Translations under genes and position numbers: made by a program
The notes under the pieces: generated by a model
The model's database searches: none
Seen by the model: the letters and a program-made list of their open reading frames with translations, nothing else
Told to the model about the DNA's origin: nothing
Source of the DNA: Clostridia bacterium
Lineage (GTDB): Bacteria > Bacillota > DULZ01
Direction of reading: 5' to 3'
DNA length: 61,022 nt
Assembly: GCA_012840125.1 (NCBI GenBank)
Contig: DULZ01000026.1
Span: forward strand, 1-61,022
Shown here: positions 3,636 to 18,992 of the stretch, in pieces
Layout: every line of letters starts with the position of its first letter
How positions within the stretch are numbered: position 1 is the stretch's first letter

Positions 3636-3883
3636 GAGTATCCCCCCTTAAGTCTTGTAAACCCGGCAGTGAAAAAAGATAGGGCAACCGGCTCCAAACG
3701 GGGCGCGAGGAGTGTCCCAGAGATGGCAAATTAGGATTTCTACGCCTCCCGTCCAATCCCTTTATTTAACCGGCCGGTGACCCTTTTCTCTGCATGATAT
3801 GCACGGCGCTCCTCTAGGCACCCCGGGGCGCCGGTTGCCCTTCGGTAGACCCGGGGCGAAGCGGGAAAGCTCCGCCGCCGGAA

Positions 3884-4888
3884 TTAGTACTCCAGATCTT
3901 TCATATCCACGGGTTTTCTGAAGACCCAGTAAGCCCACACCTGGTAAGCTAAGACGATGGGGACCATAATAATGGCTACAATGGTCATGATGGTCAGGGT
4001 GGTTACGCTGGACGAAGCATTATAGATGGTCAAGCTCCAAGCCGGGTCCAGGCTGGAGACCATGACCCGCGGGAACAGTCCCGTAAAGACCGTGGCTACG
4101 GCAAACACGATGGTAAGGGCCGTGGCGATGAAGGACTTGCCGAACTTGCCTGCGCCAGCCAGCACATAGGACAGGATTAAAGCGACGGCGGCCAGCACTA
4201 AGGCGACCATGGAGATGAACTTGCCCAGAATGTCCGTTTCCAGCAGCATTAACGCCGCCATAGCCACAACAGCGACGATGGTGGCTAACCCTAAACGGGG
4301 CGCGAGTTTTTGCACCCGCTCCTTAATCTCTCCCTGGGTGCGCAGGCTCAGGAACAAGGCACCATGGTAGGAGAAGAGGAGCACAAAGGCCACGCCTGTC
4401 ACCACGGTGAAGGGTGACAGCAGGGAGAAGAAATTCCCCACAAACTGCATGTTGGCATCAATGGGCACACCCCTAAGGAGGTTGGCCACCGCTACACCCC
4501 ATAACAGGGCCGGGACCAGGCTGCCAAACCAGAGGCACCAATCCCATAAGGCCCGCCAGGTGGGATTGTCATCTTTGCTGCGAAACTCAAAGGCTACGCC
4601 TCGCACCATTAAAGCCAGCAGCATCAGGAACAGGGCGAGGTAAAAGCCGCTGAACAGGGTGGAGTACCAGTGGGGAAAAGCGGCAAAGATGGCTCCCCCG
4701 GCGGTCAACATCCAAACTTCATTGCCGTCCCAGAAAGGACCGATGGCATTGAAGACCACCCGGCGTTCCGCGTCGTTCTTTCCCACAAAAGGCAGCAGGA
4801 TACCGGCGCCGTAATCAAAACCTTCCAGGAAGAAAAAGCCGCAGAACAGGACACCGACTAAGCAAAACCACAGTACGTTTAAGTCCAT
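3884..4888 (-). CDS. cydB: Cytochrome bd ubiquinol oxidase subunit II
   Basis: 334 residues with about eight or nine hydrophobic helices, typical of CydB. The N-terminus MDLNVLWFCLVGVLFCGFFFLEGFD and the segment GxFWDGNEVWMLTAGGAIFAAFP are family hallmarks. CydB packs against CydA and stabilises the haem pair of the high-affinity terminal oxidase, which reduces O2 to water without pumping protons but with charge separation. The gene starts 10 bases inside the end of cydA, so translation is coupled. In an otherwise anaerobic gene set, the oxidase probably serves oxygen defence or micro-oxic respiration; that role is inference. Confidence 0.95.
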   Translation of the reverse strand: MDLNVLWFCLVGVLFCGFFFLEGFDYGAGILLPFVGKNDAERRVVFNAIGPFWDGNEVWMLTAGGAIFAAFPHWYSTLFSGFYLALFLMLLALMVRGVAFEFRSKDDNPTWRALWDWCLWFGSLVPALLWGVAVANLLRGVPIDANMQFVGNFFSLLSPFTVVTGVAFVLLFSYHGALFLSLRTQGEIKERVQKLAPRLGLATIVAVVAMAALMLLETDILGKFISMVALVLAAVALILSYVLAGAGKFGKSFIATALTIVFAVATVFTGLFPRVMVSSLDPAWSLTIYNASSSVTTLTIMTIVAIIMVPIVLAYQVWAYWVFRKPVDMKDLEY

Positions 4889-6267
4889 AAGGACACCTCC
4901 TCAGCTGGTACTGACGGCCGTTTGCCGATATCAATGCCTTCGGGACCTAACTTGGCGTATTTCACCAGCAAGTAAGCGTCGGCAATAACCAGCAAGCCAA
5001 TCACCACCGTAAACACGCTCAAGGTGAGCAGCACCGCTCCGGCGGAAACATTGGGGGAAATGGCCTGATCCAGTTTCTGTAAGCCGTAGACGATCCAAGG
5101 CTGCCGTCCCATTTCCGCCACCACCCAGCCGGCCGTATTAGCAATGTACGGCAGGGCAATGGCCCAAGGCAAGACTTTCAGCAGTCCCCGGCTGTTTTCC
5201 GGTTGGCCGGAACGGGAACGGAAGAAGGCGGCAATCGCCAGCAGGATCATCAGCCCCCCCGACAGTACCATCAAGCGGAAGCTCCAGAACACCGGTTTCA
5301 CCGGGGGGATGTAATCGCCTGGTCCGTATTTGGCTTCGGCTTCAGCCTGTAAATCCTTCAATCCCTTGATTTCGCCGGAGAACTTGTTGAAAGCCATAAA
5401 GCTGGTCATGGCCGGCAAGGAGATTTCCCAGTTGTTCTTCTGCTGGGCCTGGTTGATACCGGCTACGATGTTGAAAGGTGCCGGATCGGCAGTTTCCCAC
5501 AGGGCTTCCGCCGCCGCCATTTTCATGGGCTGGGTGCGCACCAGGAACTGGCCTTGGGTATGCCCGATGACGGCCACCAGCAGCACGCTGATTAAACCGA
5601 AAACCGCGGCGATCCTAAAGGACTTGCGGAAGAAATCCAAGTTGCTCTTTCGCGCCAGGTGATAAGCGCTGACACCTAAGACGAAGAAGGATCCGGTGGT
5701 AAACCCTGCCGTGACCACATGGGGGAACTGGTGCCACACATAGGGGTTGGTGAGGAGTTCCAGGAAGTTGGTCATCTCGGCCCGGGTACCGGTCAAGACG
5801 TAGGCCACCGGGTTTTGCATGAAGGAGTTGGCGATTAAAATCCATAAAGAGGAGAGGTTACTGGCGATAGCTACCAGCCAAATGCTCAGGCAATGGACTT
5901 TCTTGGAAACCTTATCCCAACCGAAAATCCAAATCCCTAGGAAAGTAGATTCCAGGAAGAAAGCCAGCAGCGCCTCGATGGCCAAGGGCACCCCGAAGAT
6001 ATCGCCGACGAAGCGAGAATATTCAGACCAGTTCATGCCGAATTGGAAGACCATGACGATACCGGTGACGACGCCCAAGGCGAAGTTGATTACAAAGAGC
6101 TTGCCCCAGAACTGGGCCATTTTTTTGTATGTTTCATCATTAGTTCTTACATAAATAGTTTCCATGATGGCTGTCAGCAATGATAATCCAAGGGTCAGCG
6201 GTACGAACAGGAAGTGGTAGGCTGAAGTCAGACCAAACTGCCAACGCGCCAGAATTAGCTCAGTCAT
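4879..6267 (-). CDS. cydA: Cytochrome bd ubiquinol oxidase subunit I
   Basis: 462 residues. Haem ligands of the family can be placed: His18 near the N-terminus, His in QFPHVVTAGF (the His186 equivalent in E. coli) and Met in EMGRQPW (the Met393 equivalent). The stretch between the quinol-binding half and GRQPW is short, so this is the short-Q-loop class common in Gram-positives rather than the long E. coli type. Start ATG 6267 follows AAAGGAGGG by 5 bases. The promoter region carries an interrupted palindrome at 6292-6310 that could be an operator for the neighbouring Rrf2 protein. It overlaps cydB by 10 bases and heads cydABDC. Confidence 0.95.
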   Translation of the reverse strand: MTELILARWQFGLTSAYHFLFVPLTLGLSLLTAIMETIYVRTNDETYKKMAQFWGKLFVINFALGVVTGIVMVFQFGMNWSEYSRFVGDIFGVPLAIEALLAFFLESTFLGIWIFGWDKVSKKVHCLSIWLVAIASNLSSLWILIANSFMQNPVAYVLTGTRAEMTNFLELLTNPYVWHQFPHVVTAGFTTGSFFVLGVSAYHLARKSNLDFFRKSFRIAAVFGLISVLLVAVIGHTQGQFLVRTQPMKMAAAEALWETADPAPFNIVAGINQAQQKNNWEISLPAMTSFMAFNKFSGEIKGLKDLQAEAEAKYGPGDYIPPVKPVFWSFRLMVLSGGLMILLAIAAFFRSRSGQPENSRGLLKVLPWAIALPYIANTAGWVVAEMGRQPWIVYGLQKLDQAISPNVSAGAVLLTLSVFTVVIGLLVIADAYLLVKYAKLGPEGIDIGKRPSVPAEEVSLWT

Positions 6268-6291
6268 GAGTACCCTCCTTTACCTTAAAAT

Positions 6292-6310
6292 TTATACCCA
6301 AACGGTAAAC
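6292..6310. promoter_or_regulatory. Candidate operator in the cydA promoter
   Basis: The 19-mer TTATACCCAAACGGTAAAC is an imperfect inverted repeat (TACCC...GGTAAA) about 25 bases before the cydA start. On the cydA strand it sits between a TTGCAA and a TATAAA, so a bound protein would block the promoter. It matches 14 of 19 positions of the perfect palindrome GTTTACCCattGGGTAAAC in front of the PilZ gene (34083-34101). The binding protein is not known; the adjacent Rrf2 regulator is the obvious guess. Confidence 0.45.
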
Positions 6311-6401
6311 AATTATTGCAAACTACCCTCCTTTCTATTACAGAATTATGGATAGATTATGTGAAATTATAAGCAAGCCAGGGCAGAAAAGTAAAGGGCA
6401 G

Positions 6402-6836
6402 CTATCTCTTGCACTTGCGGCAGTTTTTGTATTGCTGGAGGAGCTCACCGAAATTATGCCGGGCCAGATCCTGGGCCAGTTTGTGTTGAATTTCACCAAG
6501 CACCTGATGCACCGGGCACCGATCAGACCAGTGCTTGGTACAATAATCCGCGTGGACGAAACAGCGGTTAATGGCAATCGGTCCTTCCACCGCTTCCACT
6601 ACGTCCAACAAAGAGATCTCATGGGGCTCTTTCGCTAGGGCATAGCCCCCTTCCGGTCCGCGAAAGGAATGCAGGATGCCTGCTTTCACCAGGGAACGCA
6701 GGGTTTTGAGCAGGTAGCGCATGGGTATTTCTTCGTGTTCTGCGATATCTTTGGCGGTGACGACGACATCCGGTTCTAAACCGGCTAAGTAGAGCACTAC
6801 GCGAAAAGAATAATCAGTGGCTTGTGTTAATTGCAT
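6402..6836 (-). CDS. Rrf2 family transcriptional regulator with iron-sulfur cysteines
   Basis: 144 residues from ATG 6836, chosen because GGAGG lies 7 bases upstream; a TTG four codons earlier has no ribosome site. An N-terminal winged helix (LTQATDYSFRVVLYLA, then the recognition region IPMRYLLKTLRSLVKAGIL followed by RGPEGGYALAK) is classic Rrf2. Cysteines in NRCFVHADYC...DRCPVH occupy the usual [2Fe-2S] ligand region, so it is likely a sensor of oxygen, nitric oxide or redox state like NsrR, IscR or RsrR. Two further Cys (CRKC) lie at the C-terminus. It is transcribed toward cydA (134-base gap) and away from mop, and may control both; that is inference. Its own promoter and a palindrome lie at 6851-6906. 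Confidence 0.85.
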   Translation of the reverse strand: MQLTQATDYSFRVVLYLAGLEPDVVVTAKDIAEHEEIPMRYLLKTLRSLVKAGILHSFRGPEGGYALAKEPHEISLLDVVEAVEGPIAINRCFVHADYCTKHWSDRCPVHQVLGEIQHKLAQDLARHNFGELLQQYKNCRKCKR

Positions 6837-6850
6837 TCTTTCCTCCAATG

Positions 6851-6867
6851 TATACCTCGCGAGTATA
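6851..6867. promoter_or_regulatory. Candidate autoregulatory operator of the Rrf2 gene
   Basis: TATACCTCGCGAGTATA has the perfect 8-bp core CTCGCGAG flanked by TATA on both sides (one extra C on the left). It lies between the predicted transcription start of the Rrf2 gene and its ribosome site, the usual place for autorepression. Confidence 0.45.
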
Positions 6868-6877
6868 GTTTAATTTT

Positions 6878-6906
6878 AAAATAGCACGGTTTGGGTTCGC
6901 TGTCAA
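6878..6906 (-). promoter_or_regulatory. Sigma-A type promoter of the Rrf2 gene
   Basis: On the minus strand TTGACA (6906-6901), a 17-base spacer and TATTTT (6883-6878) give a near-consensus promoter about 40 bases before the Rrf2 start codon. The spacer contains ACCCAAAC, also found in the candidate cydA operator. Confidence 0.6.
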
Positions 6907-7115
6907 TAATGATTATTAATTTGTAATAGTTTTGCAATAGATAAATTACCAGCTATTGGTTCAATTCGAGGTAATGCTAAAATTTTGATACTTCTCATTT
7001 TACTGGCAGGAAAAACCCTTTCTATGGCGAATCAATACGGCGAATTAATTCTGTGGAAATTAGTTTGGCCGGTGCTACGTGAACATTTTCACTTTATTGA
7101 TGGCTGGGGTTTCGA

Positions 7116-7138
7116 TTTCAAGGCCGGCGGCCTTGAAA
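7116..7138 (+). promoter_or_regulatory. Perfect hairpin in the leader of the aldehyde oxidoreductase gene
   Basis: TTTCAAGGCC (7116-7125), loop GGC, GGCCTTGAAA (7129-7138): a perfect 10-bp stem ending 12 bases before the AGGAG of the next gene. No T-run follows, so it is not a terminator; it could modulate translation or mRNA stability. The rest of the 6907-7164 gap is AT-rich. It holds one weak promoter candidate (TTGGTT, 16 bases, TAAAAT near 6957-6984) and nothing else I recognise. Confidence 0.4.
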
Positions 7139-7164
7139 AATATAAAAACGAGGAGCTGAGGTGC

Positions 7165-9897
7165 GTGTACAGAAAGGTAGTCCTGAATATCAACGGCATT
7201 GACCGGACGTTGATTGTCGACCCTGAGGCCACTTTAGCCAGTGTGCTGCGGGAACAACTGCTGCTCACCGGTTGTAAAGTAGGATGTGCTCAGGGGCACT
7301 GCGGCTGCTGTTCAGTGATCTTGAACGGCGAGGTGGTACGTTCCTGTGTCCTCAAGATGAGGCGGGTGCCGCCGGAAGCAAAGATCACTACCATTGAAGG
7401 TCTGGCCCGGCCGGACAACCTGCACCCGCTGCAAGTGGCTTGGATGGCTTACGGTTGTGCCCAGTGTGGTTTCTGCAGCCCGGGATTTATCTTATCTGCC
7501 AAAGTGCTGCTGGATCGGAATCCAAATCCCACGAGACAAGAGGTGCGGGATTGGTTCCAAAAGCACCGCAACGCCTGTCGCTGTACGGGGTACAAGCCCC
7601 TGGTCGATGCAGTCATGGCCGCAGCCAAAGTGTTACGGGGTGAAATGCGCAAAGAGGAATTGCTCTACCAGCCTGCCGGCAATAAGATTTACGGTACCAC
7701 GTATCACCGTCCCTCAGCTCTACGGAAAGTGACAGGCACCTGGGATTACGGCGCTGACGTGGCGCTGCAAATGCCCCCCGGCACTTTGCACCTGGCCCTG
7801 GTTCAAGCGGAAGTTTCCCATGCGAGAATCCTAAAGATTGACACCTCGGAAGCGGAGAAGATGCCCGGCGTCTATAAAGTGGTGACCCATAAGGACGTGA
7901 AGGGCAAGAACAGGATCACCGGTTTGATTACTTTCCCCACCAATAAGGGTGACGGCTGGGATAGGCCCATCCTCTGCGATGAAAAGGTGTTCCAGTTCGG
8001 TGATGCCATTGCCATCGTATGCGCCGACACGGAAGCCAATGCCCGGGAAGCGGCGAAAAAGGTTAAAGTGGAGTTGGAGCCCCTGCCCGCTTACATGAGC
8101 GCCCAGGAGGCCATGGCGCCGGATGCCATTGAAATCCACCCGGGGGTCCCGAATATCTATTATGAACAAGGCATCGTCAAAGGAGAAGATACGAAACCGG
8201 TTTTTGAAACCGCCGACGTGGTGGTAGAAGTCAATACTGCCTGCAGCCGCCAGCCTCACCTGGTGCTGGAGCCCGATTGCGGCTGCGCCTATATAGACGA
8301 AGAGGGCAGGCTCACCATTCATTCCAAGAGTATCGGCCTGCATCTCCACCACGCCATGATCGCTCCCGGCATCGGCATCGAGCCGGAAAAACTGCGCCTG
8401 GTGCAGAACCCGGCCGGCGGCACCTTTGGGTATAAATTCAGCCCCACCATTGAAGCCCTGCTGGGAGTTGCTTGCCTGGCCACCGGGAAGCCCGTGGTGC
8501 TCCGGTACAACATGTATCAACAAATTACTTACACCGGTAAGCGCTCCCCCGGCTTTGTGAAGTGCCGGTTAGCAGCCGATAAAACCGGGAAGCTCCTGGC
8601 TATGGAAACGGACTGGACTATTGACCACGGGCCCTATTCCGAGTTCGGCGATCTCCTCACCTTGCGTCTGGCCCAGTTCACCGGTGCCGGCTATGATATT
8701 CCCAACATCCGGGGCAAAGGCCGGACGGTTTGTACCAACCACGCCTGGGGTTCCGCTTTCCGTGCTTATGGTTCGCCTCAATCTTTCCTGGCCTCGGAAA
8801 TTGCCATGGATGTGCTGGCGGAGAAACTGGGCATGGATCCCTTTGAACTGCGTTACAAGAATATTTACCGGCCCGGAGCCACCACCCCGACGGGACAGGA
8901 GCCGGATGTATACTGCCTGGAAGCCATGTTTGACAAGCTGCGTCCCTACTGGGAGGAAGCCAAGAAGCGGTGTCAAGAGCTTTCCACGGATAAGGTCAAG
9001 CGCGGCGTAGGCCTGTCCCTGGGCATCTACGGCTGCGGCCTGGACGGCCCGGACAGCTCGGAAATCCATGTGGAATTGACCCCCGAGGGAGTAACCCTCT
9101 ATGCCTCCTGGGAAGACCACGGGCAAGGCGCGGATATCGGCGCATTGACCCATGCCCATGAAGCCTTAAGACCATTGGGTCTCAAACCGGAACAAATCAA
9201 GCTGGTGCTAAACGACATGGCCTGCACCCCCAACAGCGGCCCCGCCGGCGGCAGCCGTTCCAACGTGATGACAGGCAACGCCATTAAGATCGGCTGTGAA
9301 ATGCTCTTGAATGCCATGCGCAAACCCGACGGCACTTACCGGACCTACGACGAGATGGTGGCGGAAAACATCCCGTTGAAATACAGCGGTAAATGGGTCG
9401 CTTCCATGTGTACCCCTTGTGATCCCGAGACCGGCCAGGGAGCGCCTTTCCCGGTGTACATGTATGAATTGTTCATGCCGGAAGTGGAAGTGGACCTGGA
9501 AACGGGCAAAGCCCGGGTGGTCAAGTTCACCACGGTGGTCGATGTGGGCACCATTACCAACAAGACCGCCGTGGACGGCCAGATTTACGGCGGCCTGGCT
9601 CAAGGCATCGGCTTGGCTTTAAGCGAGGATTTCGAGGACCTGAAAAAGCATACCAATCTCCTGGCCTGCGGGCTGCCCTACATCTATGATGTACCCGATG
9701 ATATCGAGATTATCTATAATATCACACCTCGTCCCTATGGGCCCAACGGCTCAGCCGGCGTGGGAGAAGCACCTTTGACTGCGCCCCACCCCGCCATCTT
9801 GAACGCCATTTACAATGCTTGCGGGGTACGGATCTATAAAGTGCCGGCCCTGCCGGAAGTGATTAAAGCCGAGTTGGAAAAGCTGGCTAACAAGTAG
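7165..9897 (+). CDS. mop: Molybdenum-dependent aldehyde oxidoreductase, single-chain Mop type
   Basis: From GTG 7165 (AGGAG 9 bases upstream) the protein is 910 residues, the size of Desulfovibrio gigas Mop (about 907). An earlier in-frame extension to 6985 has no ribosome site. Residues 1-80 are a plant-type [2Fe-2S] domain with Cys41, 46, 49 and 61. Residues 80-160 are a helical [2Fe-2S] domain with Cys101, 104, 138 and 140. These spacings equal those of D. gigas Mop, offset by one. The rest is the xanthine-oxidase-type molybdopterin domain, ending with GVGEAPLTAP whose Glu868 is the expected base. There is no FAD domain. It oxidises aldehydes to carboxylates at a molybdenum-cytosine dinucleotide cofactor; the physiological substrate is unknown. 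First gene of a seven-gene run. Confidence 0.88.
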   Translation: MYRKVVLNINGIDRTLIVDPEATLASVLREQLLLTGCKVGCAQGHCGCCSVILNGEVVRSCVLKMRRVPPEAKITTIEGLARPDNLHPLQVAWMAYGCAQCGFCSPGFILSAKVLLDRNPNPTRQEVRDWFQKHRNACRCTGYKPLVDAVMAAAKVLRGEMRKEELLYQPAGNKIYGTTYHRPSALRKVTGTWDYGADVALQMPPGTLHLALVQAEVSHARILKIDTSEAEKMPGVYKVVTHKDVKGKNRITGLITFPTNKGDGWDRPILCDEKVFQFGDAIAIVCADTEANAREAAKKVKVELEPLPAYMSAQEAMAPDAIEIHPGVPNIYYEQGIVKGEDTKPVFETADVVVEVNTACSRQPHLVLEPDCGCAYIDEEGRLTIHSKSIGLHLHHAMIAPGIGIEPEKLRLVQNPAGGTFGYKFSPTIEALLGVACLATGKPVVLRYNMYQQITYTGKRSPGFVKCRLAADKTGKLLAMETDWTIDHGPYSEFGDLLTLRLAQFTGAGYDIPNIRGKGRTVCTNHAWGSAFRAYGSPQSFLASEIAMDVLAEKLGMDPFELRYKNIYRPGATTPTGQEPDVYCLEAMFDKLRPYWEEAKKRCQELSTDKVKRGVGLSLGIYGCGLDGPDSSEIHVELTPEGVTLYASWEDHGQGADIGALTHAHEALRPLGLKPEQIKLVLNDMACTPNSGPAGGSRSNVMTGNAIKIGCEMLLNAMRKPDGTYRTYDEMVAENIPLKYSGKWVASMCTPCDPETGQGAPFPVYMYELFMPEVEVDLETGKARVVKFTTVVDVGTITNKTAVDGQIYGGLAQGIGLALSEDFEDLKKHTNLLACGLPYIYDVPDDIEIIYNITPRPYGPNGSAGVGEAPLTAPHPAILNAIYNACGVRIYKVPALPEVIKAELEKLANK

Positions 9898-10001
9898 CAA
9901 TAGTTTTCAGGAGACATCACGCAGCCGGTGCATGACGGCAGGCATCAAGTGGGATGCAGGTCCCACTTGATGCCGGTTTTCTACCGGAAAGGGGAAATTC
10001 C

Positions 10002-12323
10002 ATGGATCAGAAAACCATGCGCGAACTGGAAGCAAAATGCATTCAAGAGAGTCCCCCGGGTTGTACGACGGCCTGCCCTGTGCATGTGGACGCCCGGGCC
10101 CTGATCGCGGCGGTGCAAAATGAGGACTTTGGGTCCGGTGTCAAAATATTTAGAAAAGTAGTGCCTTTTCCCAGGATCATCAGCCGGGTCTGTGATGAAC
10201 CTTGTCAAGCCCAGTGTAAGAGGAAAGAAGCCGGTGATCCTATTGCCGTCAACGCATTGGAGCGAGCTTGTATGGAATACGGCGGCGACTGGGAACCCAA
10301 GCTTCTTCCGGTAGTAAAAAAAGGTAAAAAGATTGCGGTGGTGGGCGGTGGATTGAGCGGGTTGACGGTGGCCCTGGAACTGGCCCAAAAAGGTTATCCG
10401 GTGGTGATTTACGAAAAAGAAGGGGCTTTAGGGGGCAGCATCCGCGCCCTTCCCGCGGCCAAGCTGCCGCCGGAGCTGGTGGAGGCGGACCTGCGGGCGG
10501 TTCAGGAACATCCCTTGATTGAGATTAATCTCGGTATCGAAGTTGGGGCTGGTGGCTCCCCATCCCTGGTGGAACTCCTCCGGCAGTTTGACGCGGTTTA
10601 CCTGGGTACCGGAAGGGGAGATGTGGCTTGTTTTGGGCCGGCCCTGGACAGCGAGGGACGGTTGAGCCCGGATCCCCTGACTTTGCAAACCGGCCATCCC
10701 CAAGTTTTTGCCGGGGGCACCCTGGCTCTCGGCGTGGCGGGTAAGAGCCCTATTATGTCCATTTCTCACGGTAAAAAGGCGGCCAACTCCATCGCCCGCT
10801 TGCTCCAAAATGTCTCCTTGACCGCCGAGCGAGACAAGGAAGGACCTTATCCCACCGCCTTGTATACCAATATCGCAGGAATACCACCTGCCAAAAGAGT
10901 CATGCCGGCCGACCCCCAGCAAGGCTTCACCCGGGAAGAAGCCTTGTTAGAAGCGAAGCGCTGTCTCCAGTGTGAATGTATGGAATGCGTCAAGGCCTGT
11001 GCGTACTTAGCTCATTACGGTGCCTATCCCAAACGCTATGTGCGGGAAATCTACAATAATCTTTCCATCGTCATGGGCATGCGGCATGCCAATAAAATGA
11101 TCAACTCCTGCAGTTTATGCGGCATGTGCCGGGAAGTGTGTCCCAATGGATTAAACATGGGAGAGATTTGCCGGGCAGCGCGGCAGCTGATGGTCAGGAC
11201 CGGCAAGATGCCCCCTTCCGCCCATGAGTTTGCCCTGCGGGACTTCCGGTTCAGTACCGGTGACCGGTTTGTCCTTCACCGGCACCAGCCCGGTTTTACC
11301 TCCAGCAGCGTCTTATTTTTCCCCGGATGCCAGTTGAGTGCATCCAAACCCCAGTATGTGCAAAAGCTTTACGAGTTGCTGTGCGGCAAAATACCCGGCG
11401 GTGTGGGCCTCAGCCTGGGCTGCTGCGGTGCCCCCGCCCAGTGGGCCGGCGCGGAAGAGCTTTTTCGCGAAACCCTGGCGAACCTCGAGCAAGAATGGCG
11501 GGCTCTAGGTTCTCCCCGGGTGATCACGGGCTGTCCTACCTGTTATAGCATCTTCCGCCAGGAAATGCCGGCGGTGGAGGTGGAGACCATTTGGACCGTG
11601 CTGGACCGGTTGGAGGTGGTGGAGGAAAGAGCCGGTACGGGACGCCCCCTGGTTCTGGCGGTGCACGATGCCTGCACCACCAGGCAAGATCAAGAGCTGC
11701 AGGATTGCGTGCGACGCATTGCCACCCAGCTGGGCCACCAGGTGGTGGAACTGGAGCGCAGCCGGTTGACAACGGATTGCTGCGGTTACGGGGGTTTAAT
11801 GTCCTTTGCCAATAGGGAGGTGGCCCGGCAGGTGAGGCGGCGCCGGGTGGAAGAACACGAAGCGGATTACCTGGTCTACTGTGCCATGTGCCGGGATAAT
11901 TACGCCAAAGAAGGGAAGAAAGTTTTTCACCTGCTGGATTTACTCTTTGGGGATCCCGCATTGACCGGTGCGGAAAAAGGCCCCGGCTTTTCCAAGCGGC
12001 AGGAAAACCGGGCCAAGTTGAAACAGTCTCTCTTGCAAGAAATGTGGGGTGAAACAGTGACCGGAGAACAAGCCGGGGTGAAACTGATTATTCCGGAACG
12101 GGTGCAAGAGCTTTTGGAAGAGAGGATGATTTTAGAAGAAGACCTGCAAGCTGTCATTGCCTATGCGGAGAGTACGGGTAATAAATTCAAGCATACGGAA
12201 AACAACACCTTTATTGCGTACTTTCGCCCGGTCACGGTTACCTACTGGGTGGAGTACAGCCCGCAAGGGGACGGCTTCTTGATCCATAATGCTTACAGTC
12301 ACCGGCTGCAGATCGAAGGGTAG
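10002..12323 (+). CDS. FAD and multi-cluster oxidoreductase with HdrD-like CCG domains (dicluster-binding protein)
   Basis: 773 residues from ATG 10002 (AAAGGGG just upstream); in-frame starts further up lack a ribosome site. Visible parts in order: an N-terminal Cys region as in GltD-type proteins (PPGCTTACPVH...CDEPCQAQCKR); a dinucleotide-binding motif VVGGGLSGLTVALELAQKG near residue 110; a ferredoxin pair (CLQCECMECVKAC and CSLCGMCREVCPNG); then two CCG domains of the HdrB/GlpC type (GCCGAPAQW and DCCGYGGLMSF) that can hold unusual clusters. The last 70 residues are unassigned. It resembles the pyridine nucleotide-disulfide oxidoreductase/dicluster-binding proteins found next to Mop in Desulfovibrio and Clostridia. 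Likely role: accept electrons from Mop and pass them to NAD(P) or another carrier (inference). Confidence 0.8.
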   Translation: MDQKTMRELEAKCIQESPPGCTTACPVHVDARALIAAVQNEDFGSGVKIFRKVVPFPRIISRVCDEPCQAQCKRKEAGDPIAVNALERACMEYGGDWEPKLLPVVKKGKKIAVVGGGLSGLTVALELAQKGYPVVIYEKEGALGGSIRALPAAKLPPELVEADLRAVQEHPLIEINLGIEVGAGGSPSLVELLRQFDAVYLGTGRGDVACFGPALDSEGRLSPDPLTLQTGHPQVFAGGTLALGVAGKSPIMSISHGKKAANSIARLLQNVSLTAERDKEGPYPTALYTNIAGIPPAKRVMPADPQQGFTREEALLEAKRCLQCECMECVKACAYLAHYGAYPKRYVREIYNNLSIVMGMRHANKMINSCSLCGMCREVCPNGLNMGEICRAARQLMVRTGKMPPSAHEFALRDFRFSTGDRFVLHRHQPGFTSSSVLFFPGCQLSASKPQYVQKLYELLCGKIPGGVGLSLGCCGAPAQWAGAEELFRETLANLEQEWRALGSPRVITGCPTCYSIFRQEMPAVEVETIWTVLDRLEVVEERAGTGRPLVLAVHDACTTRQDQELQDCVRRIATQLGHQVVELERSRLTTDCCGYGGLMSFANREVARQVRRRRVEEHEADYLVYCAMCRDNYAKEGKKVFHLLDLLFGDPALTGAEKGPGFSKRQENRAKLKQSLLQEMWGETVTGEQAGVKLIIPERVQELLEERMILEEDLQAVIAYAESTGNKFKHTENNTFIAYFRPVTVTYWVEYSPQGDGFLIHNAYSHRLQIEG

Positions 12324-12334
12324 GGGGTATGGCG

Positions 12335-12541
12335 ATGAACGGGGAAAACAATCCGGCCAAGGCTGTTATCTGTGCCAAATGCAATGAGCCGCTGGCCCTG
12401 GGAAAAGTAACCTTGTCATATTTAAACAACAGCTTTCCGGTGGACTTATATAAATGCCCCCAGTGTTCTTTAGTCTTCATTCCCGAAGAACTGGCTCTGG
12501 GCAAAATGGAGCAGGTGGAAAAGGCCCTGGAGGACAAGTAA
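12335..12541 (+). CDS. Small two-CxxC redox or zinc-ribbon protein (DVU_1557-like)
   Basis: 68 residues from ATG 12335, preferred because AGGGGG lies 7 bases upstream; ATG 12329 is too close to that site. Two CxxC knuckles (CAKC and CPQC) about 30 residues apart form a rubredoxin- or zinc-ribbon-like fold, with LGKVTLSYLNNSFPVDLYKC between them. A protein of this size and pattern occupies the same place in the Desulfovibrio DVU_1551-1559 locus, where it is called a redox protein. It may bind Fe or Zn, and may deliver electrons or tether a partner. The function has not been shown. Confidence 0.7.
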   Translation: MNGENNPAKAVICAKCNEPLALGKVTLSYLNNSFPVDLYKCPQCSLVFIPEELALGKMEQVEKALEDK

Positions 12542-12601
12542 ATTTCGTCCCGGTCGCGGCAGGCCATGGCGGGCGTGACGACCGGTAAAGGGGTGAATAA
12601 G

Positions 12602-13042
12602 ATGTTTAACGACGATTTCATCCGCATGCTGGAACTGCACCAGCAAGGGTTTCACTGCAGCCAAATCCTGCTGGCCCTGGGTTTGGAAAAACGGGGCCGG
12701 ACTAATCCCGACTTGATTCGTGCCATGACCGGTTTAGCCGGGGGCCTGGGGTTTACCGGTAAACTCTGCGGGGCTTTAAGCGGCGGTGCCTGCCTGCTGG
12801 CCCTGTACGCCGGTCGAGGCAGTGTGGAGGAAAGAGGCGATGCCAAGCTGGACCTGATGATCAGCGAATTGGTGGACTGGTTTGAGGCCCAGTACGGAGG
12901 GCGGTACGGCGGCATAGATTGTGATGACATTTTGGAGGATAATCCCCTGAACCGGCCCCAGCGCTGTCCCCAGATTGTACGCGAGACTTATGCCAAAGTG
13001 GTGGAGCTCTTGACGGATCATGGTTATGACATAGAAGGATGA
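12602..13042 (+). CDS. C-GCAxxG-C-C family protein (DVU_1555-like)
   Basis: 146 residues from ATG 12602 (AAAGGGG about 11 bases upstream). The family pattern is visible: an isolated Cys in GFHCSQ, the segment KLCGALSGGACLLALY (a variant of GCAxxG), then Cys in GIDCDDI and in QRCPQI. These conserved cysteines suggest metal or cluster binding, and such proteins often sit beside radical SAM or redox enzymes. Function unknown. It lies between the zinc-ribbon-like gene and trsS, as DVU_1555 does in Desulfovibrio; the methyltransferase gene (trsM, DVU_1556) that usually lies between them is absent here. Confidence 0.75.
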   Translation: MFNDDFIRMLELHQQGFHCSQILLALGLEKRGRTNPDLIRAMTGLAGGLGFTGKLCGALSGGACLLALYAGRGSVEERGDAKLDLMISELVDWFEAQYGGRYGGIDCDDILEDNPLNRPQRCPQIVRETYAKVVELLTDHGYDIEG

Positions 13043-13064
13043 CCGGTGGAAGGGGGGAGAACAG

Positions 13065-14459
13065 GTGACGGGGGGACCGGAACAACTGCTGGGCAGGACG
13101 GAAAGTGTTTGCCCGGAATGCTTGAAGGTGGTGCCGGCCTTAAGAGTGGCCGGGGCAGGCCAGGTCTACCTGGTGAAGGAATGCGATGATCACGGTGTCT
13201 TCCGCACTTTGATTTGGGAAGGAGAGGAGCATTACCGCCGCTGGGACATGGCCCGGCTGCCGGTGCGGGTGGACCACCCGGTGACGCCGGTGGACAAAGG
13301 TTGTCCCTATGACTGCGGGCCCTGTCCCGAGCACCGGCAAGACCCTTGCTGTGTGCTGCTGGAGGTGACGGGGAACTGCAATCTTAATTGTCCCATTTGT
13401 TTTGCCTCCGCGGCGGCGGGTAAAAGCCAGGACCCCTCCTTAGAGGAAATCCGGGATTGGTACCGCCGGCTGCATTCCCACGGAAGTCATTATAACATCC
13501 AACTGTCGGGAGGAGAACCGACGGTCCGGGATGACTTGCCGGAAATAGTCAGGCTGGGAAAGGAGTTCGGTTTTCCTCACCTGCAGTTGAATACCAACGG
13601 CCTCAGGCTGGCCAGGGAACCGGAGCTGGCCCGGAAACTGAAAGATGCCGGGTTAGACACGGTCTACTTGCAATTTGACGGCACCAGAGATGACATCTAT
13701 CAAGCCACCAGGGGGCGGGCCTTACTGGAGGAGAAACTGGCGGCCATCGAGCACTGCGCCGCTGCCGGGTTAGGCGTCGCCCTGGTGCCGACCCTGGTAG
13801 CCGGGGTAAACCTGGATCATATCGGGGAGATCATTGACTTTGCCCTCAGCCGCATGCCCTATGTCAGGGGTGTTCATTTCCAACCTATCAGCTATTTCGG
13901 ACGGTATCCCGGTGTCCCGCCGGTGCACCGGCTGACCATTCCCCGGATCTTAAGGGAAATCGAGGCGCAAACCGCCGGGAGAATGAGACAAGAGCATTTC
14001 GCTCCGGTTGGGGCGGAAAACCCTTACTGCACTTTTCACGGGAGTTTTACCCTGCAGCCTGACGGGACTTTGAAACCCTGGCGGGTCCAAGGCTGCTGCG
14101 GGCCTTCCCAAGAGCCGGTGGATCCGAAAGCCGGAGTGGCGAAATCAAGAACCTTTGTGGCCCGGCAGTGGTCTGCCCCGCCGCAGGCTGCCTGCTGTAA
14201 CCGTGACCCGGCGGCGGGCCTGGATGAGCTCCTCCGCCGGATCCATACGTATTCCATCAGTATTTCCGGGATGGCCTTTCAAGACGCCTGGAACCTGGAC
14301 CTGGAGCGGCTCCGGGACTGCAAGTTGTTTATTTTCAGTCCCCCGGGAAAACTCATTCCTTTTTGCGCCTTTAACTTAACGGCGCCGGACGGCCGGAGCC
14401 TTTACCGGCCCCGGCGAGGGGAGGATAGGCATGGGCCGGCCCCGCAGCAGCTTGGATGA
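13065..14459 (+). CDS. trsS: Radical SAM protein, TrsS-like
   Basis: 464 residues from GTG 13065 (AAGGGGGGAGA upstream). After an N-terminal CPEC knuckle and the Cys-rich segment GCPYDCGPCPEH, the radical SAM motif CNLNCPIC supplies Cys105, 109 and 112 for the SAM-binding [4Fe-4S] cluster. SGGEPT and LNTNG follow as in MoaA- or PqqE-like enzymes. More cysteines downstream (CTF, QGCCGP, AACCNRD) may hold an auxiliary cluster. It resembles the radical SAM (seleno)protein called TrsS, encoded beside aldehyde oxidoreductases; the CC pair near residue 345 is where I would look for selenocysteine in relatives. Substrate unknown. The end overlaps the CoA ligase start by 29 bases. Confidence 0.78.
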   Translation: MTGGPEQLLGRTESVCPECLKVVPALRVAGAGQVYLVKECDDHGVFRTLIWEGEEHYRRWDMARLPVRVDHPVTPVDKGCPYDCGPCPEHRQDPCCVLLEVTGNCNLNCPICFASAAAGKSQDPSLEEIRDWYRRLHSHGSHYNIQLSGGEPTVRDDLPEIVRLGKEFGFPHLQLNTNGLRLAREPELARKLKDAGLDTVYLQFDGTRDDIYQATRGRALLEEKLAAIEHCAAAGLGVALVPTLVAGVNLDHIGEIIDFALSRMPYVRGVHFQPISYFGRYPGVPPVHRLTIPRILREIEAQTAGRMRQEHFAPVGAENPYCTFHGSFTLQPDGTLKPWRVQGCCGPSQEPVDPKAGVAKSRTFVARQWSAPPQAACCNRDPAAGLDELLRRIHTYSISISGMAFQDAWNLDLERLRDCKLFIFSPPGKLIPFCAFNLTAPDGRSLYRPRRGEDRHGPAPQQLG

Positions 14460-15774
14460 GTGGGTGCGGGGGAAAGTGGGCCTCGGTCCCGGTGAAGAGC
14501 TGACCCGGGAAAAACTTGCAGATTACCAGCTGGGAAAACTCCGCGCTCTGGTGGATTACGTCTCCCGGCACAGCCCTTTTTACCGGCGGCATTTACAGGG
14601 TTATCCCCTGACCGCCCTCAATAGTTTGGACGACTTAGCGGAGCTGCCCTTTACCACGGAAGAGGATTTAAGGGCTGCCGGGTTAAAGATGCTGTGTGTC
14701 TCCCAGAGCCGGATCAACAGGATCGTCACCCTGGATACCTCCGGTACCACCGGCCGGCCCAAACGGATCTGTTTTACCCCTGCCGACCAGGCGTTGACGG
14801 TGGAGTTTTTTCAACAAGGGTTGGCCACCTTTACCTGGCCCGGGGAGAAAGTATTGATTCTCCTGCCCGGTGAGCGGCCCGGCAGTATCGGTGATTTGCT
14901 GGCCAGGGCCATGCAAAACCTGGGGGTGGTACCCATCCCCTTCGGCGTGGGACATAGCCTGGCGGAGATGCTGGCGAAACTGGCGGAGACCCAAGCCCAG
15001 GTGATCATCGGCATTCCGGTGCACGTGCTGGCCCTGGCCAGGTATCACCGGTTATGGGAACCGGAAAAAACCATTAACCTGAAAAGGGTGCTCTTGACCA
15101 CGGATTATGTGGCTCAAGCGGTAGTGGAGGTATTGCAGGACAGCTGGCAGTGCGAGGTTTTCAGGTATTACGGCATGACGGAAATGGGCTACGGGGGAGG
15201 CATTGAGTGCCGCCGGCATGAGGGCTACCACCTGTACGAGGGAGATTTCCTCTTTGAAATCGTGGATCCGGTGCGGGGGACCAGAGTACCGGCCGGAGCC
15301 TGGGGCGAGGTGGTGGTCACTACTTTGACCAGAAACGGGATGCCCCTGGTCCGTTACCGCACGGGGGATATTGCCCGGCTGCTCCCGGAACCGTGTCCCT
15401 GCGGATCGGTGCTGGCCAGGCTGGGCCCCGTTAAAAGGCGGGTTAAAGGCTGGATCCGGGTGGATGACGAGACCGGTTTCAGCATCGGGGAGTTAGATGA
15501 AATCCTGTTTACCCTGCCGGGGGTGGTGGATTTTATGGTGTGGCGTTACGGTGCGGCGGAACCCTTTTGGTTGGAAATAGAGGTGGAGGCCATCGACCGG
15601 GCTTTAAGCCCCGGACAAATCAGGAGAGCCCTGGAGACGCACCCGGCCATGCAGTCATTGCTGGCCCAGGGCAGGCTGCAGCTCACCGCCCGGGGAATCC
15701 CGGCACCTGCTTGTTACCGACCGAAAACAGGTAAGAGGAGAATGGAGGTAAGAGTGACCCGTGGGCAGCCTTGA
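14431..15774 (+). CDS. AMP-dependent CoA ligase (DVU_1553-like, phenylacetate-CoA ligase type)
   Basis: 447 residues. The ANL-superfamily phosphate loop is LDTSGTTGRPK; FRYYGMTEMGYGGG and VRYRTGDIARLL are the A5 and A8 regions. Length and motif style match the phenylacetate-CoA ligase (PaaK) branch. The N-terminus YVSRHSPFYRRHL is typical of that branch. It would adenylate a carboxylate and transfer it to CoA. Beside an aldehyde oxidoreductase it could activate the acid that Mop makes, or act on a modified substrate of TrsS; neither is shown. Start ATG 14431 has GGGGAGGA 6 bases upstream and overlaps trsS. Confidence 0.82.
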   Translation: MGRPRSSLDEWVRGKVGLGPGEELTREKLADYQLGKLRALVDYVSRHSPFYRRHLQGYPLTALNSLDDLAELPFTTEEDLRAAGLKMLCVSQSRINRIVTLDTSGTTGRPKRICFTPADQALTVEFFQQGLATFTWPGEKVLILLPGERPGSIGDLLARAMQNLGVVPIPFGVGHSLAEMLAKLAETQAQVIIGIPVHVLALARYHRLWEPEKTINLKRVLLTTDYVAQAVVEVLQDSWQCEVFRYYGMTEMGYGGGIECRRHEGYHLYEGDFLFEIVDPVRGTRVPAGAWGEVVVTTLTRNGMPLVRYRTGDIARLLPEPCPCGSVLARLGPVKRRVKGWIRVDDETGFSIGELDEILFTLPGVVDFMVWRYGAAEPFWLEIEVEAIDRALSPGQIRRALETHPAMQSLLAQGRLQLTARGIPAPACYRPKTGKRRMEVRVTRGQP

Positions 15775-16192
15775 GAAAATGAAAGAGCAAATCAGCGCCT
15801 GTTGTCAAGCCGTGATGGAGCAGTTGGCCCAGGCCTGCGGTGATAATTATGAGGAATTGATCAAGAATTGGCTGGAAATCCATGCACATTATATACAAAC
15901 CGTGAATTCTGTCCTGGAACAGTGGGCGGCGGGAGCATCCCCGGCCGGTGCCGCCGGGGATGCCGGTGCCATCTACGCCAGTGAAGCCGTGGTGGAGGTT
16001 GTTGAAGCCGGGACAGGAAGAGTCTTGAGGCGCAGGTTACCCATGGAATACTGGGAAACCGGCAACGGTATCAGGCTGGTGGGCGAGACGGTGGACGGGG
16101 TGGCCACGCACCTGGCTTTCCTGTCGGAAACCGGGGTCTTGCGCATGAAAGACATTTTAGGGCAAGGGCCGGATACCCCCCGTTGTGAATAA
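15761..16192 (+). CDS. Conserved-position unknown protein at the end of the Mop-TrsS operon
   Basis: 143 residues from GTG 15761 (GGAGG 11 bases upstream, overlapping the ligase end); an ATG at 15779 is an alternative start. The N-terminal half is helical and acidic with a Cys pair (SACC) and a Cys in QACGDN. An Ala/Gly-rich linker (ASPAGAAGDAG) leads to a C-terminal part that looks like a small beta-rich domain (EVVEAGTGRVLRRRLPMEYWE). I do not recognise a family. Its overlap with the ligase and the terminator just after it place it firmly in this operon, so it is probably an accessory factor of the same system. Confidence 0.65.
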   Translation: MGSLEKMKEQISACCQAVMEQLAQACGDNYEELIKNWLEIHAHYIQTVNSVLEQWAAGASPAGAAGDAGAIYASEAVVEVVEAGTGRVLRRRLPMEYWETGNGIRLVGETVDGVATHLAFLSETGVLRMKDILGQGPDTPRCE

Positions 16193-16200
16193 AGTGCGGC

Positions 16201-16240
16201 GGCTGTAGGGGAGCCTATTCCCTTGCAGCCTCTTTTTTTT
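16201..16240 (+). terminator. Intrinsic terminator of the Mop-TrsS operon
   Basis: GGCTGTAGGGG (16201-16211) pairs with CCCTTGCAGCC (16220-16230), with two G-U pairs and an 8-nt loop, followed by TCTTTTTTTT. It begins 9 bases after the last stop codon. Confidence 0.85.
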
Positions 16241-16280
16241 GCCCGGGGACCGGATGCTTGGCAGGAGGGTAAGCTCCGGC

Positions 16281-16378
16281 TGGACAGGACGACCCTGGCT
16301 GTGTATAATGAGACCATGGGTGATTCCTCATTCAGTAGACATCATACCCGGCCGGGGAATGGTTCTTCCCAGGCCGGG
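16281..16378 (+). promoter_or_regulatory. Sigma-A promoter and leader hairpin of the MBL hydrolase gene
   Basis: TGGACA (16281-16286), 17 bases, TATAAT (16304-16309): a near-consensus promoter. The roughly 120-base leader contains a two-part stem, CCCGGCC (16347-16353) with GGCCGGG (16372-16378), and inside it GGGAA with TTCCC. No T-run follows, so the hairpin is not a terminator; its role is unknown. Confidence 0.6.
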
Positions 16379-16436
16379 GGATGCGGCGCTTTTACCCCAG
16401 AATGTCAACAATTAGGATAAGCCGGAGTTGATTATT

Positions 16437-17240
16437 ATGAAAAAACTGAAAATTGAGACACGCCGCGGCCTCCGCATGGCGGTGGGGAAAAGGTCTTTCG
16501 CCGGCTACAGCCTCAATACCTGCTCTTACTGGGTGGACGGGGTCATCGTGGATACGGGACCGCGCAGCTTAAGAGCGGGGTTTCGTGCTTTTCTTGCGGC
16601 ACAGCCGGTGGAAAAGGTGGTGCTGACCCACAGTCATGAGGATCACTGCGGCAACGCGGTTTTATTCAATGAAAAAGGCATACCCGTCTACCTGCACCCC
16701 GGTACCGTGGACCGGGCGGCGCAGCCGGTCCGGGTGCCTTTTTACCGCTGGGTTTTTTGGCGGCCCAGGTCCCCGTTTAAGGCGGAACCCTTGCCGGGGG
16801 CCATCGAAACCGCCCGGGGAAAACTGATCCAGGTGATCCCGGCGCCGGGACATGCGCCGGATCATGTGGCCTATCTGTATCCTGAAGAAGGCGTTTTATT
16901 TACCGGCGATTTATTCGTCAGCACCACTACCAAATTAGGCATGCGTGAGGAAGATTATGCTGCCTGGATGAACACCCTGGCAAAGCTGCTGGAGTATGAT
17001 TTTGACCTGATCTGCTGCGGTCATGCGGGGATGGTCCCCAACGGCAAGGAGATGCTGGCCAAGAAACTGCACAAGCTGCAGGAACTTAAGGAAAGCATCC
17101 TCCATCTGAAGGAAAAAGGGTGGAGTGACCGGGAGATCGAGAGAAAACTGTTTCCCCACACCAGGAAAGTGGAGCTCCTGTCCGGGGGAGAATGGGGTTC
17201 CATTCATATCGTCCGTGCCTTGATGAACACCGGCAAGTGA
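16437..17240 (+). CDS. MBL-fold metallo-hydrolase
   Basis: 267 residues from ATG 16437; a TTG three codons earlier is possible. The metal-binding motif HSHEDHCGN (HxHxDH) near residue 63, then APGHAPDH, FTGDLF and CGHAG supply the remaining ligands of a binuclear metallo-beta-lactamase-fold hydrolase. The subgroup resembles general thioester or lactone hydrolases (glyoxalase-II-like). The tail after residue 210 is helical and charged (KKLHKLQELKESILHLKEKG), as in several MBL proteins that end in a winged-helix-like domain. Substrate cannot be told. It is a single-gene unit with its own promoter and terminator. Confidence 0.8.
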   Translation: MKKLKIETRRGLRMAVGKRSFAGYSLNTCSYWVDGVIVDTGPRSLRAGFRAFLAAQPVEKVVLTHSHEDHCGNAVLFNEKGIPVYLHPGTVDRAAQPVRVPFYRWVFWRPRSPFKAEPLPGAIETARGKLIQVIPAPGHAPDHVAYLYPEEGVLFTGDLFVSTTTKLGMREEDYAAWMNTLAKLLEYDFDLICCGHAGMVPNGKEMLAKKLHKLQELKESILHLKEKGWSDREIERKLFPHTRKVELLSGGEWGSIHIVRALMNTGK

Positions 17241-17257
17241 GACCCCGGATCCGCGCC

Positions 17258-17287
17258 GGGGCAGGGGATTTCTCCCTGCCCCTTTTT
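17258..17287 (+). terminator. Intrinsic terminator after the MBL hydrolase
   Basis: GGGGCAGGG (17258-17266), loop GATTTCT, CCCTGCCCC (17274-17282), then TTTTT: a perfect 9-bp GC-rich stem with a U-tract. Confidence 0.85.
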
Positions 17288-17344
17288 GCCATGGTTGTGC
17301 TATCATTTTATATAGGATTTGTCGAAACCCTTATTGTAATCAAC

Positions 17345-18964
17345 ATGGAAAGGAAGCGCAGGACATTGTTTGAACTGGTCATTACCAATGGACTGGTACT
17401 GGACGGAACAGGTAGGGAAGCACAACCGGTGGATGTGGCGGTGGACCGGGGCAAAATAGCAGCCCTGGGCGCCAACTTGGCGGCCCAAGCCGCCCGGGTG
17501 ATCGATGCGGGAGGTCAGTTCGTCACCCCGGGTTTTATCGATATTCATAGCCACGGGGACTTGATGCCTTTTATGGGGCCTCCCGTTCGTTACGCCAAGA
17601 TCCTGCAGGGGGTAACGACGGAAGTCACCGGCCAGTGCGGTTTGGGTGTGGCTCCTTATTTAAAAGATACCATGGCGGGCTGGCGGGAATACCTTACCCC
17701 CATCACCGGCAATCCCGGCGACGAGCTGTGGGACTGGCCGTCCTTCGGGGATTATCTGGAGGCACTGAGGAAAGCCTCTTTACCCGCCAATATGGCTCCC
17801 CTGGTTTCTCATGGGGCCATCAGAGCCCAAGTCCTGGGCTTGGGTGACGTCCAGCCCACCGGGAAAGACCTGGAGCGCATGGGCGCCATCCTGAAGGACA
17901 GCTTTGAGGCCGGGGCTTTTGGTATTTCCTTTGGCCTGGCTTATGTGCCGGGGGTTTTTGCCCCGGCGGAAGAGGTGCTGGCTTTGGCCAGAATCGCGGC
18001 TGCTTATGATAAAGTGATGATGGTCCACATCCGGAATCACGGGAGGCTGGTGGAGCAGTCCCTCCGGGAAGTGCTGGAGATCGCCCGCGAAACCGGGGTG
18101 AGGCTGCAGATCTCCCATCTGAAATCCTATGCCAACCGCCGGTACGGGGTGGAGGCCGACCGGCTGATTGCCCCGGTGGAGGAAGCCAAGCAGCAGGGGG
18201 TGGATGTGGCTTTCGATGAGCACCCCTATACGGCTGGGAGCACCACCCTGTCCCAAATCCTGCCTCCCTGGGCCAAGGAGGGAGGGGGCGCCCGCATCGT
18301 GGAGAGACTGGGGGACCCGGCGGTGGTGGCGGCCGTCAAGGAGGCCATTGAGCGGGTGGATCAGGACCACTGGGACAATTACGTGGGCATGATCGGCTGG
18401 GACAATGTGCTGGTGAGTTCGGTGTGCTGCCCGGAAAACAGGGAGTACCAGGGAAAAAGCATCGCGGAGATCGCCCGGCTGCGGGGCGAGACAGAGATGG
18501 AGGCGGCGATATATTTGCTCACCAGCGAAAAGGCTGAATGCGGGATGGTTATGCGGGACGTTTTCGCCGAAGCAGACAACCGGCTGCTGATCCGGCATCC
18601 CCTCTGCCAGATCGGTTCCGACGGATTGCCGACCGGGAACCCTCACCCGCGGCTCTACAGCGCTTTCCCGAAATACCTGGCCCACTACATCCGGGATCTA
18701 AAGCTTTTGGATTGGCCGGAAGGGATCAAGAAAATTACGAAGGACGCCGCCGACCGGGCCGGGATCAAAGACCGGGGTACCATTACGGTGGGGAAGAGGG
18801 CGGATCTGGTCATCTTTGATCCTGATCAAATCCGGGACCGGGAAGATTACCTGCGCCCGGAGCGAGTGCCGGCAGGGATTAGTTATGTGTTCGTCAATGG
18901 GAACATTGCTGTTGCCCATGGACAGGTGGCCTGCGATCACGGCGGGCAGGTTTTGGGTATGTAA
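17345..18964 (+). CDS. N-acyl-D-amino-acid deacylase family amidohydrolase
   Basis: 539 residues from ATG 17345. Neither this ATG nor the TTG at 17366 (AGGA about 11 bases before) has an ideal ribosome site, so the start is uncertain. The amidohydrolase metal site begins with GFIDIHSHGD, with further motifs VHIRNHG and LQISHLKSY; the C-terminus has GKRADLVIFDP, where the small beta-domain closes. Length and motifs match D-aminoacylase/dihydroorotase-like enzymes that release D-amino acids or process N-acyl or cyclic amides. It is followed after 28 bases by a substrate-binding lipoprotein and a two-component system, which may sense the substrate or product (inference). Confidence 0.78.
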   Translation: MERKRRTLFELVITNGLVLDGTGREAQPVDVAVDRGKIAALGANLAAQAARVIDAGGQFVTPGFIDIHSHGDLMPFMGPPVRYAKILQGVTTEVTGQCGLGVAPYLKDTMAGWREYLTPITGNPGDELWDWPSFGDYLEALRKASLPANMAPLVSHGAIRAQVLGLGDVQPTGKDLERMGAILKDSFEAGAFGISFGLAYVPGVFAPAEEVLALARIAAAYDKVMMVHIRNHGRLVEQSLREVLEIARETGVRLQISHLKSYANRRYGVEADRLIAPVEEAKQQGVDVAFDEHPYTAGSTTLSQILPPWAKEGGGARIVERLGDPAVVAAVKEAIERVDQDHWDNYVGMIGWDNVLVSSVCCPENREYQGKSIAEIARLRGETEMEAAIYLLTSEKAECGMVMRDVFAEADNRLLIRHPLCQIGSDGLPTGNPHPRLYSAFPKYLAHYIRDLKLLDWPEGIKKITKDAADRAGIKDRGTITVGKRADLVIFDPDQIRDREDYLRPERVPAGISYVFVNGNIAVAHGQVACDHGGQVLGM

Positions 18965-18992
18965 GTGTGGCGTGTCACAATGAGGTGCGAGC

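Follow-up and report, generated by a model that had tools for sequence, protein, structure and literature searches.

The aldehyde oxidoreductase (AOR) of D. gigas is a structural model for the xanthine oxidase family. It has no FAD domain, and the standing of flavodoxin as its accepted partner rests on in vitro reconstitution (PMC10223205). Another protein has been described beside enzymes of this type, hereafter Mop, namely CLJU_RS11825/RS11865 of C. ljungdahlii, which appear next to Mop in a 2017 transcriptome paper (PMC5640608) and are relatives within the NCBIfam family NF045663. Besides that paper and one proteomics table, our search turned up little literature on the DVU155x cluster, of which DVU_1558 is presumably also an NF045663 member. 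The family is named yet uncharacterised, and the protein described below, a full-length match with the same neighbours, is not new as an object. The same family model also takes a long form that contains an NAD(P)H domain.

Several better-known enzymes share parts with this protein. NfnB, GltD, StnA, the A subunit of NfnABC and the N-terminal part of dihydropyrimidine dehydrogenase (DPD) have in common with it a Fer4_20 Fe-S domain and the FAD Rossmann half; compared with this group, the NAD(P)H domain is deleted, the FAD Asp motif is mostly lost among the relatives, and a CCG pair and a C-terminal domain are added. HdrB likewise carries two CCG motifs with ten Cys residues, but the sequence similarity is weak (20–22 bits), and here the pair is fused to flavin and ferredoxin parts. 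All CCG Cys ligand positions of EtfD, the mycobacterial ETF:menaquinone reductase (PDB 9ojn), are also kept, whereas the membrane part of EtfD is missing, Cys475 stands for Thr539 and Thr/Ser513 for the capping His583. In the reductive urate pathway of Escherichia coli, the GltD-like Fe-S flavoprotein YgfK is encoded alongside a molybdenum hydroxylase, XdhD. NAD(P)H served in assays of YgfK, which acts as a reductase on a substrate of its own (PMC12507026); our protein, by contrast, is devoid of the NAD(P)H domain and gives no FMN-domain match.

Domain make-up of the NF045663 protein

The window, the whole 61,022-nucleotide stretch of Clostridia bacterium DNA analysed here (contig DULZ01000026.1), contains a reading frame that starts with ATG at 10002, preceded by AAAGGGGAAA, and runs without internal stops to the stop codon at 12321–12323. 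The NF045663 profile covers residues 2–772 of its product with 1025 bits, close to double the curated cut-off (530), and the protein is a full-length family member. Its parts are as follows:

10002–12323, + strand: NF045663 (diclust_near_Sec) protein, 773 aa
10029–10280, + strand: Fer4_20, the GltD/NfnB/DPD-type N-terminal Fe-S domain, residues 10–93
10323–10805, + strand: FAD half of the GltD fold, residues 108–268, with GGGLSG at 115–120, E138 and GG at 144–145
10617–10688, + strand: site at which GltD/NfnB and the long form hold the NAD(P)H-binding domain, residues 206–229
10950–11156, + strand: ferredoxin-like dicluster, residues 317–385
11310–11555, + strand: first CCG domain, residues 437–518, with C443, C474, C475, C511 and C514
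11655–11909, + strand: second CCG domain, residues 552–636, with C558, C593, C594, C627 and C630
12069–12320, + strand: C-terminal domain, residues 690–773, found in Mop-linked forms and absent from long forms

Pfam recognises Fer4_20 (residues 10–93, 76 bits), a Fer4_17 dicluster (320–385, 53 bits), the two CCG domains (47 bits) and a single Rossmann half-site, NAD_binding_8 (113–148, 34 bits). The Fer4_20 domain contains C13, C21, C25, C64, C68, C72 and E87, with E16 in the place of the usual second Cys of CxxC, and the dicluster has nine conserved Cys residues (321, 324, 326, 329, 333, 370, 373, 376 and 380). When 25 Cys residues were followed through 81 homologues (61 from group A, 13 from group B and 7 long forms), 23 proved invariant, C21 being missing in three sequences and C333 in two. 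An AlphaFold2 model (pLDDT 90.3, pTM 0.81) retrieved NfnABC/StnABC chains, NfnB-type subunits, EtfD and dihydropyrimidine dehydrogenase in a structure search. A chance domain match is ruled out by the family score, the confident model and the invariant Cys residues. The original prediction, made from the DNA letters, that one chain at 10002–12323 combines ferredoxin clusters with two CCG domains is confirmed down to the exact coordinates.

The C-terminal domain of about 86 residues is predicted with a model confidence of 86.5. Sequence searches of PDB, Pfam and NCBIfam returned no convincing match beyond its own family, and Foldseek listed RelE/YoeB/HigB-type folds (best E 0.018, TM about 0.45) besides weak DUF4258 matches; the RelE-like resemblance is a weak hint at the fold only. 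From its distribution among the forms, our guess is that this domain docks to Mop. A stand-alone copy of it lies at locus L073 (3859–4149), immediately after a complete NF045663 gene.

Linkage to Mop and the surrounding gene cluster

The NF045663 gene follows a mop gene and precedes several genes of other named families:

7165–9897, + strand: Mop, D. gigas-type molybdopterin-dependent aldehyde oxidoreductase (NF045668, 1669 bits, cut-off 1100)
9941–9974, + strand: 15-bp perfect hairpin and then GGTTTTCT, between mop and the NF045663 gene, terminator- or attenuator-like
12329–12541, + strand: DVU_1557 family four-Cys redox protein, 70 aa (NF045645, 99.7 bits, cut-off 60)
12602–13042, + strand: DVU_1555 family C-GCAxxG-C-C protein (NF045669, 180 bits, cut-off 103)
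13065–14459, + strand: radical SAM protein TrsS (NF045646, 622 bits, cut-off 490)
14431–15774, + strand: DVU_1553 family AMP-dependent CoA ligase (NF045666, 457 bits, cut-off 300)

The Mop of the window, whose GTG start was deduced from the DNA within the ORF 6985–9897, matches D. gigas AOR (PDB 1sij/1vlb) over its full length with 1347 bits. It is made up of two [2Fe-2S] clusters and the Mo site; the Pfam matches are Fer2, Fer2_2, MoCoBD_1 and MoCoBD_2, with no FAD domain among them. In tblastn searches, Mop was located immediately upstream of the NF045663 gene on the same strand at 64 loci and within about 2 kb upstream at 4 more; among the remaining loci it was divergent at one and absent at one, and five at contig ends were left unjudged. 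The two genes also occur together, in a pattern that relatedness among the genomes inflates as statistics, not as pattern: within the window's phylum (300 genomes sampled), 17 of 18 Mop genomes have the NF045663 gene, the 18th giving a partial match only, and all 17 genomes with the short form carry an over-cut-off Mop, while in the class of a Pseudodesulfovibrio member (149 genomes) both genes are present in 104 of 106, Mop alone in one and the NF045663 gene alone in one, near a contig start. The co-occurrence P-values take no account of shared ancestry. This near-perfect co-occurrence and the usual adjacency are new results, and they provide strong gene-level evidence that the protein is tied to Mop.

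Both lend support to the original prediction of an electron outlet for a Mop that has no FAD domain, and we consider that the protein probably serves the adjacent Mop, of the D. gigas type, as a dedicated partner for electron transfer. Against this role stand one genome (G329) with Mop and no partner, and some Mop paralogues that, within one genome, have no partner copy of their own. In addition, D. gigas AOR reduces flavodoxin in vitro (PMC10223205) and could strictly do without a second partner.

Genes of the maturation type, for XdhC, an NTP transferase and a MoeA-like protein, are part of the cluster too, and linkage alone therefore cannot separate electron transfer from maturation. The protein could instead serve in the maturation or repair of Mop: alongside the XdhC, NTP transferase, MoeA-like, TrsS and TrsM proteins, it would supply electrons, handle sulfur or do both, either for the Mo=S ligand or at some other cofactor step. 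This alternative is the hardest to separate because the cluster is so rich in such genes, and it would also fit the single partner copy of some multi-Mop genomes and the tie of the long form to sulfur transport and TusA. However, Mop is usually the immediate neighbour, nearer than the maturation genes, and the C-terminal domain specific to Mop-linked forms suits docking equally well. Moreover, to our knowledge, xanthine oxidase-family systems elsewhere mature without any NF045663-like protein. We regard a maturation factor as unlikely and favour the electron-transfer partner.

Genomes with two or three Mop paralogues and a single partner gene include G368, G344 and G407 of the Desulfovibrio class, among others. 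The genome of the window itself has a second Mop and partner cluster (locus L096, contig C103; 35% identical), which brings its own genes for TrsS, TrsM, a C-GCAxxG-C-C protein and a CoA ligase. A TrsM methyltransferase is encoded in most relatives and in this second cluster, and none was called in the window cluster (12329–15774). The TrsS gene of the window has no in-frame stop and is hence not a Sec form. The hairpin at 9941–9974 is unique in the genome and may curb read-through, in which case the partner would be made in smaller amounts than Mop. Upstream of Mop on the opposite strand (184–6848) lie genes for a CydCD-like pair of ABC transporter proteins and a cydAB-like oxidase, with an Rrf2-type regulator in between, all read from translations only. 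An Rfam scan of 5000–20000 gave zero matches.

The NAD(P)H domain and the flavin site

The segment in which GltD and NfnB hold their NAD(P)H domain has shrunk to 24 residues in the protein of the window and to 0–31 residues in 74 Mop-linked sequences, compared with 174–177 residues in the 7 long forms. In an alignment with GltD-type proteins that its own genome encodes, the FAD half of the window's protein joins the C-terminal FAD segment directly, the insert being absent. An inserted NAD(P)H domain with a second GxGxxG was found in none of the 74 Mop-linked sequences and in all seven long forms, and Pfam reports a full Pyr_redox_2 domain (128 bits) in the one of the latter that was scanned. 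Desulfovibrio-class full-length matches span at most about 2.5 kb, and hence none of them can hold the insertion. The seven long forms come from genomes without an over-cut-off Mop, and within the sample the NAD(P)H domain and Mop are mutually exclusive. Also new here, judged from sequence comparison, is this loss of the NAD(P)H domain in all Mop-linked members set against its retention in a Mop-less sister long form. The family name of NF045663, 'pyridine nucleotide-disulfide oxidoreductase/dicluster-binding protein', is misleading in this respect, as the Mop-linked members have no pyridine-nucleotide site. The reading as an NAD(P)H-linked enzyme is rejected for the protein of the window, in which the nucleotide-binding domain is missing. 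The GltD-like FAD domain of the original prediction thus stands only in part: Fer4_20 and the FAD half are present, but the NAD(P)H half is absent and Pyr_redox_2 stays below the Pfam cut-off (22.7 versus 26.1). NAD(P)H, which had been named as a redox partner, is not supported in that role, since only the Mop-less long form has its domain and all Mop-linked members examined have lost it.

In a tree of the Fe-S/CCG part, the long forms make up one clade (99/98) apart from the Mop-linked sequences, with outgroups on very long branches. Their neighbours are YedE-type sulfur-transport genes, TusA and rhodanese, and the NF045663 model accepts most of them (one with 581 bits) despite the different domain make-up and context. 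They are possibly NAD(P)H-dependent sulfur or disulfide reductases. The long forms at L104 (8866–11388) and L105–L109 are about 850 aa long and are encoded beside split YedE-type transporters, TusA, rhodanese and a VTT-domain protein.

The remaining FAD half is unevenly preserved. The GxGxxG, the acidic ribose residue and the ATG-like glycine are intact in 35 of 61 group A sequences, 13/13 of group B and 7/7 long forms; in the other 26 of group A, mostly from Desulfobacterota, these motifs are eroded while the Fe-S cysteines are kept. The Asp of the GGD motif (FAD ribityl) is retained in all seven long forms, but in only 6 of the 61 group A and none of the 13 group B sequences. The protein of the window combines an intact nucleotide fingerprint with T240, the GGD Asp being absent. 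Flavin thus appears to be optional across the family, and the eroded site beside intact clusters in many Desulfobacterota members is a further new result.

These findings bear on flavin-based bifurcation or confurcation, which the original prediction had put forward. An NfnB-like FAD would receive electrons from Mop rather than from NAD(P)H and split them, one path leading over the N-terminal clusters to ferredoxin and the other to the CCG site. The N-terminal half does resemble NfnB/NfnABC/StnABC chains, bifurcation is known from the flavoproteins NfnB and HdrA (PMC5861303), and the fingerprint motifs are intact here, in over half of group A and throughout group B. The loss of the NAD(P)H domain and the scarcity of the GGD Asp speak against it and, because many Desulfobacterota sequences keep the clusters but have eroded flavin motifs, a special-flavin mechanism is unlikely to be the function shared by the family. 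Bifurcation therefore seems improbable as a general mechanism, and simple electron transfer from Mop is the reading that we retain.

The CCG site and a proposed electron route

The CCG motifs have the form C-x30-CC-x35-CxxC and C-x34-CC-x32-CxxC, and all ten Cys residues, including the last of each CxxC (C514 and C630), are invariant in 81/81 sequences. The top-scoring solved relative of this part is EtfD (PDB 9ojn, 62 bits), with which C443/C474/C511/C514 of the first domain align at C503/C538/C581/C584, and C558/C593/C594/C627/C630 of the second at C637/C672/C673/C709/C712, so that our protein retains nine of nine CCG-cluster Cys ligands known from EtfD. The first EtfD cluster is a linear [3Fe-4S] cluster because a Thr replaces the Hdr Cys; in the second, His583 forms a cap, which makes that cluster non-catalytic (PMC13083937). 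In our protein, EtfD T539 corresponds to C475, the Cys seen in Hdr, and His583 to T513; this position is T/S in 74/74 Mop-linked sequences and never His. By the criterion of the same study, a bridging last CxxC Cys and no capping His, the ten Cys with C475 and an uncapped site predict the ligand set of the catalytic Hdr clusters. Judged by its ligand residues, the pair is Hdr-like rather than EtfD-like, which is again a new result, and the HdrB-type assignment of the original prediction is borne out. An EtfD-like capped wire is rejected on the same residues.

A related proposal, made in 2017 for C. ljungdahlii (PMC5640608), is that electrons leave the CCG pair for a membrane or quinone carrier as in EtfD, and the rank of EtfD as nearest solved CCG sequence would agree with it. 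Yet neither the protein nor those of the cluster proteins that were checked show a transmembrane-like segment, the site has the Hdr cysteine and no capping His, and the 2017 authors themselves point out that C. ljungdahlii lacks the genes needed for the redox-active moiety of any known quinone (PMC5640608). Such a membrane wire is improbable.

For the partner of Mop, linkage, domain loss and ligand conservation come from the comparison itself, and from these we infer the direction of electron flow, the docking and the acceptor. Electrons from aldehyde would leave the [2Fe-2S] clusters of Mop for the [4Fe-4S] clusters of the partner, might pass its flavin where the site is intact, and would continue through the [4Fe-4S] chain to the pair of non-cubane [4Fe-4S] clusters and there reduce an acceptor of the disulfide or sulfur type. 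Mop would thereby substitute for NAD(P)H as the electron source on a GltD-CCG scaffold, and the reverse direction, acid reduction, is also conceivable. A thiol/disulfide acceptor is our best guess, with a small-molecule disulfide, the co-encoded C-GCAxxG-C-C protein or the DVU_1557 protein as candidates.

More tentatively, and with somewhat less than even confidence, we hypothesize that an NAD(P)H-flavoprotein scaffold became a molybdoenzyme-driven, nicotinamide-independent disulfide or sulfur reductase through removal of the NAD(P)H domain and addition of a Mop-docking domain, the Hdr-type twin site being kept. If so, aldehyde oxidation would drive the reduction of a disulfide or of sulfane sulfur directly, a coupling for which we know of no precedent among molybdenum hydroxylases. 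Where the electrons of the D. gigas-type Mop go has long been asked, and the question becomes testable: the partner gene, kept in Bacillota-type, Chloroflexota and Desulfobacterota genomes, encodes an obvious acceptor candidate, and its parts predict sharply that it would have no NAD(P)H activity and would carry twin Hdr-type clusters. The gene for the DVU_1557 protein (12329–12541) is short enough to be missed by simple ORF cut-offs, and its C-terminal LEDK is invariant among the relatives seen.
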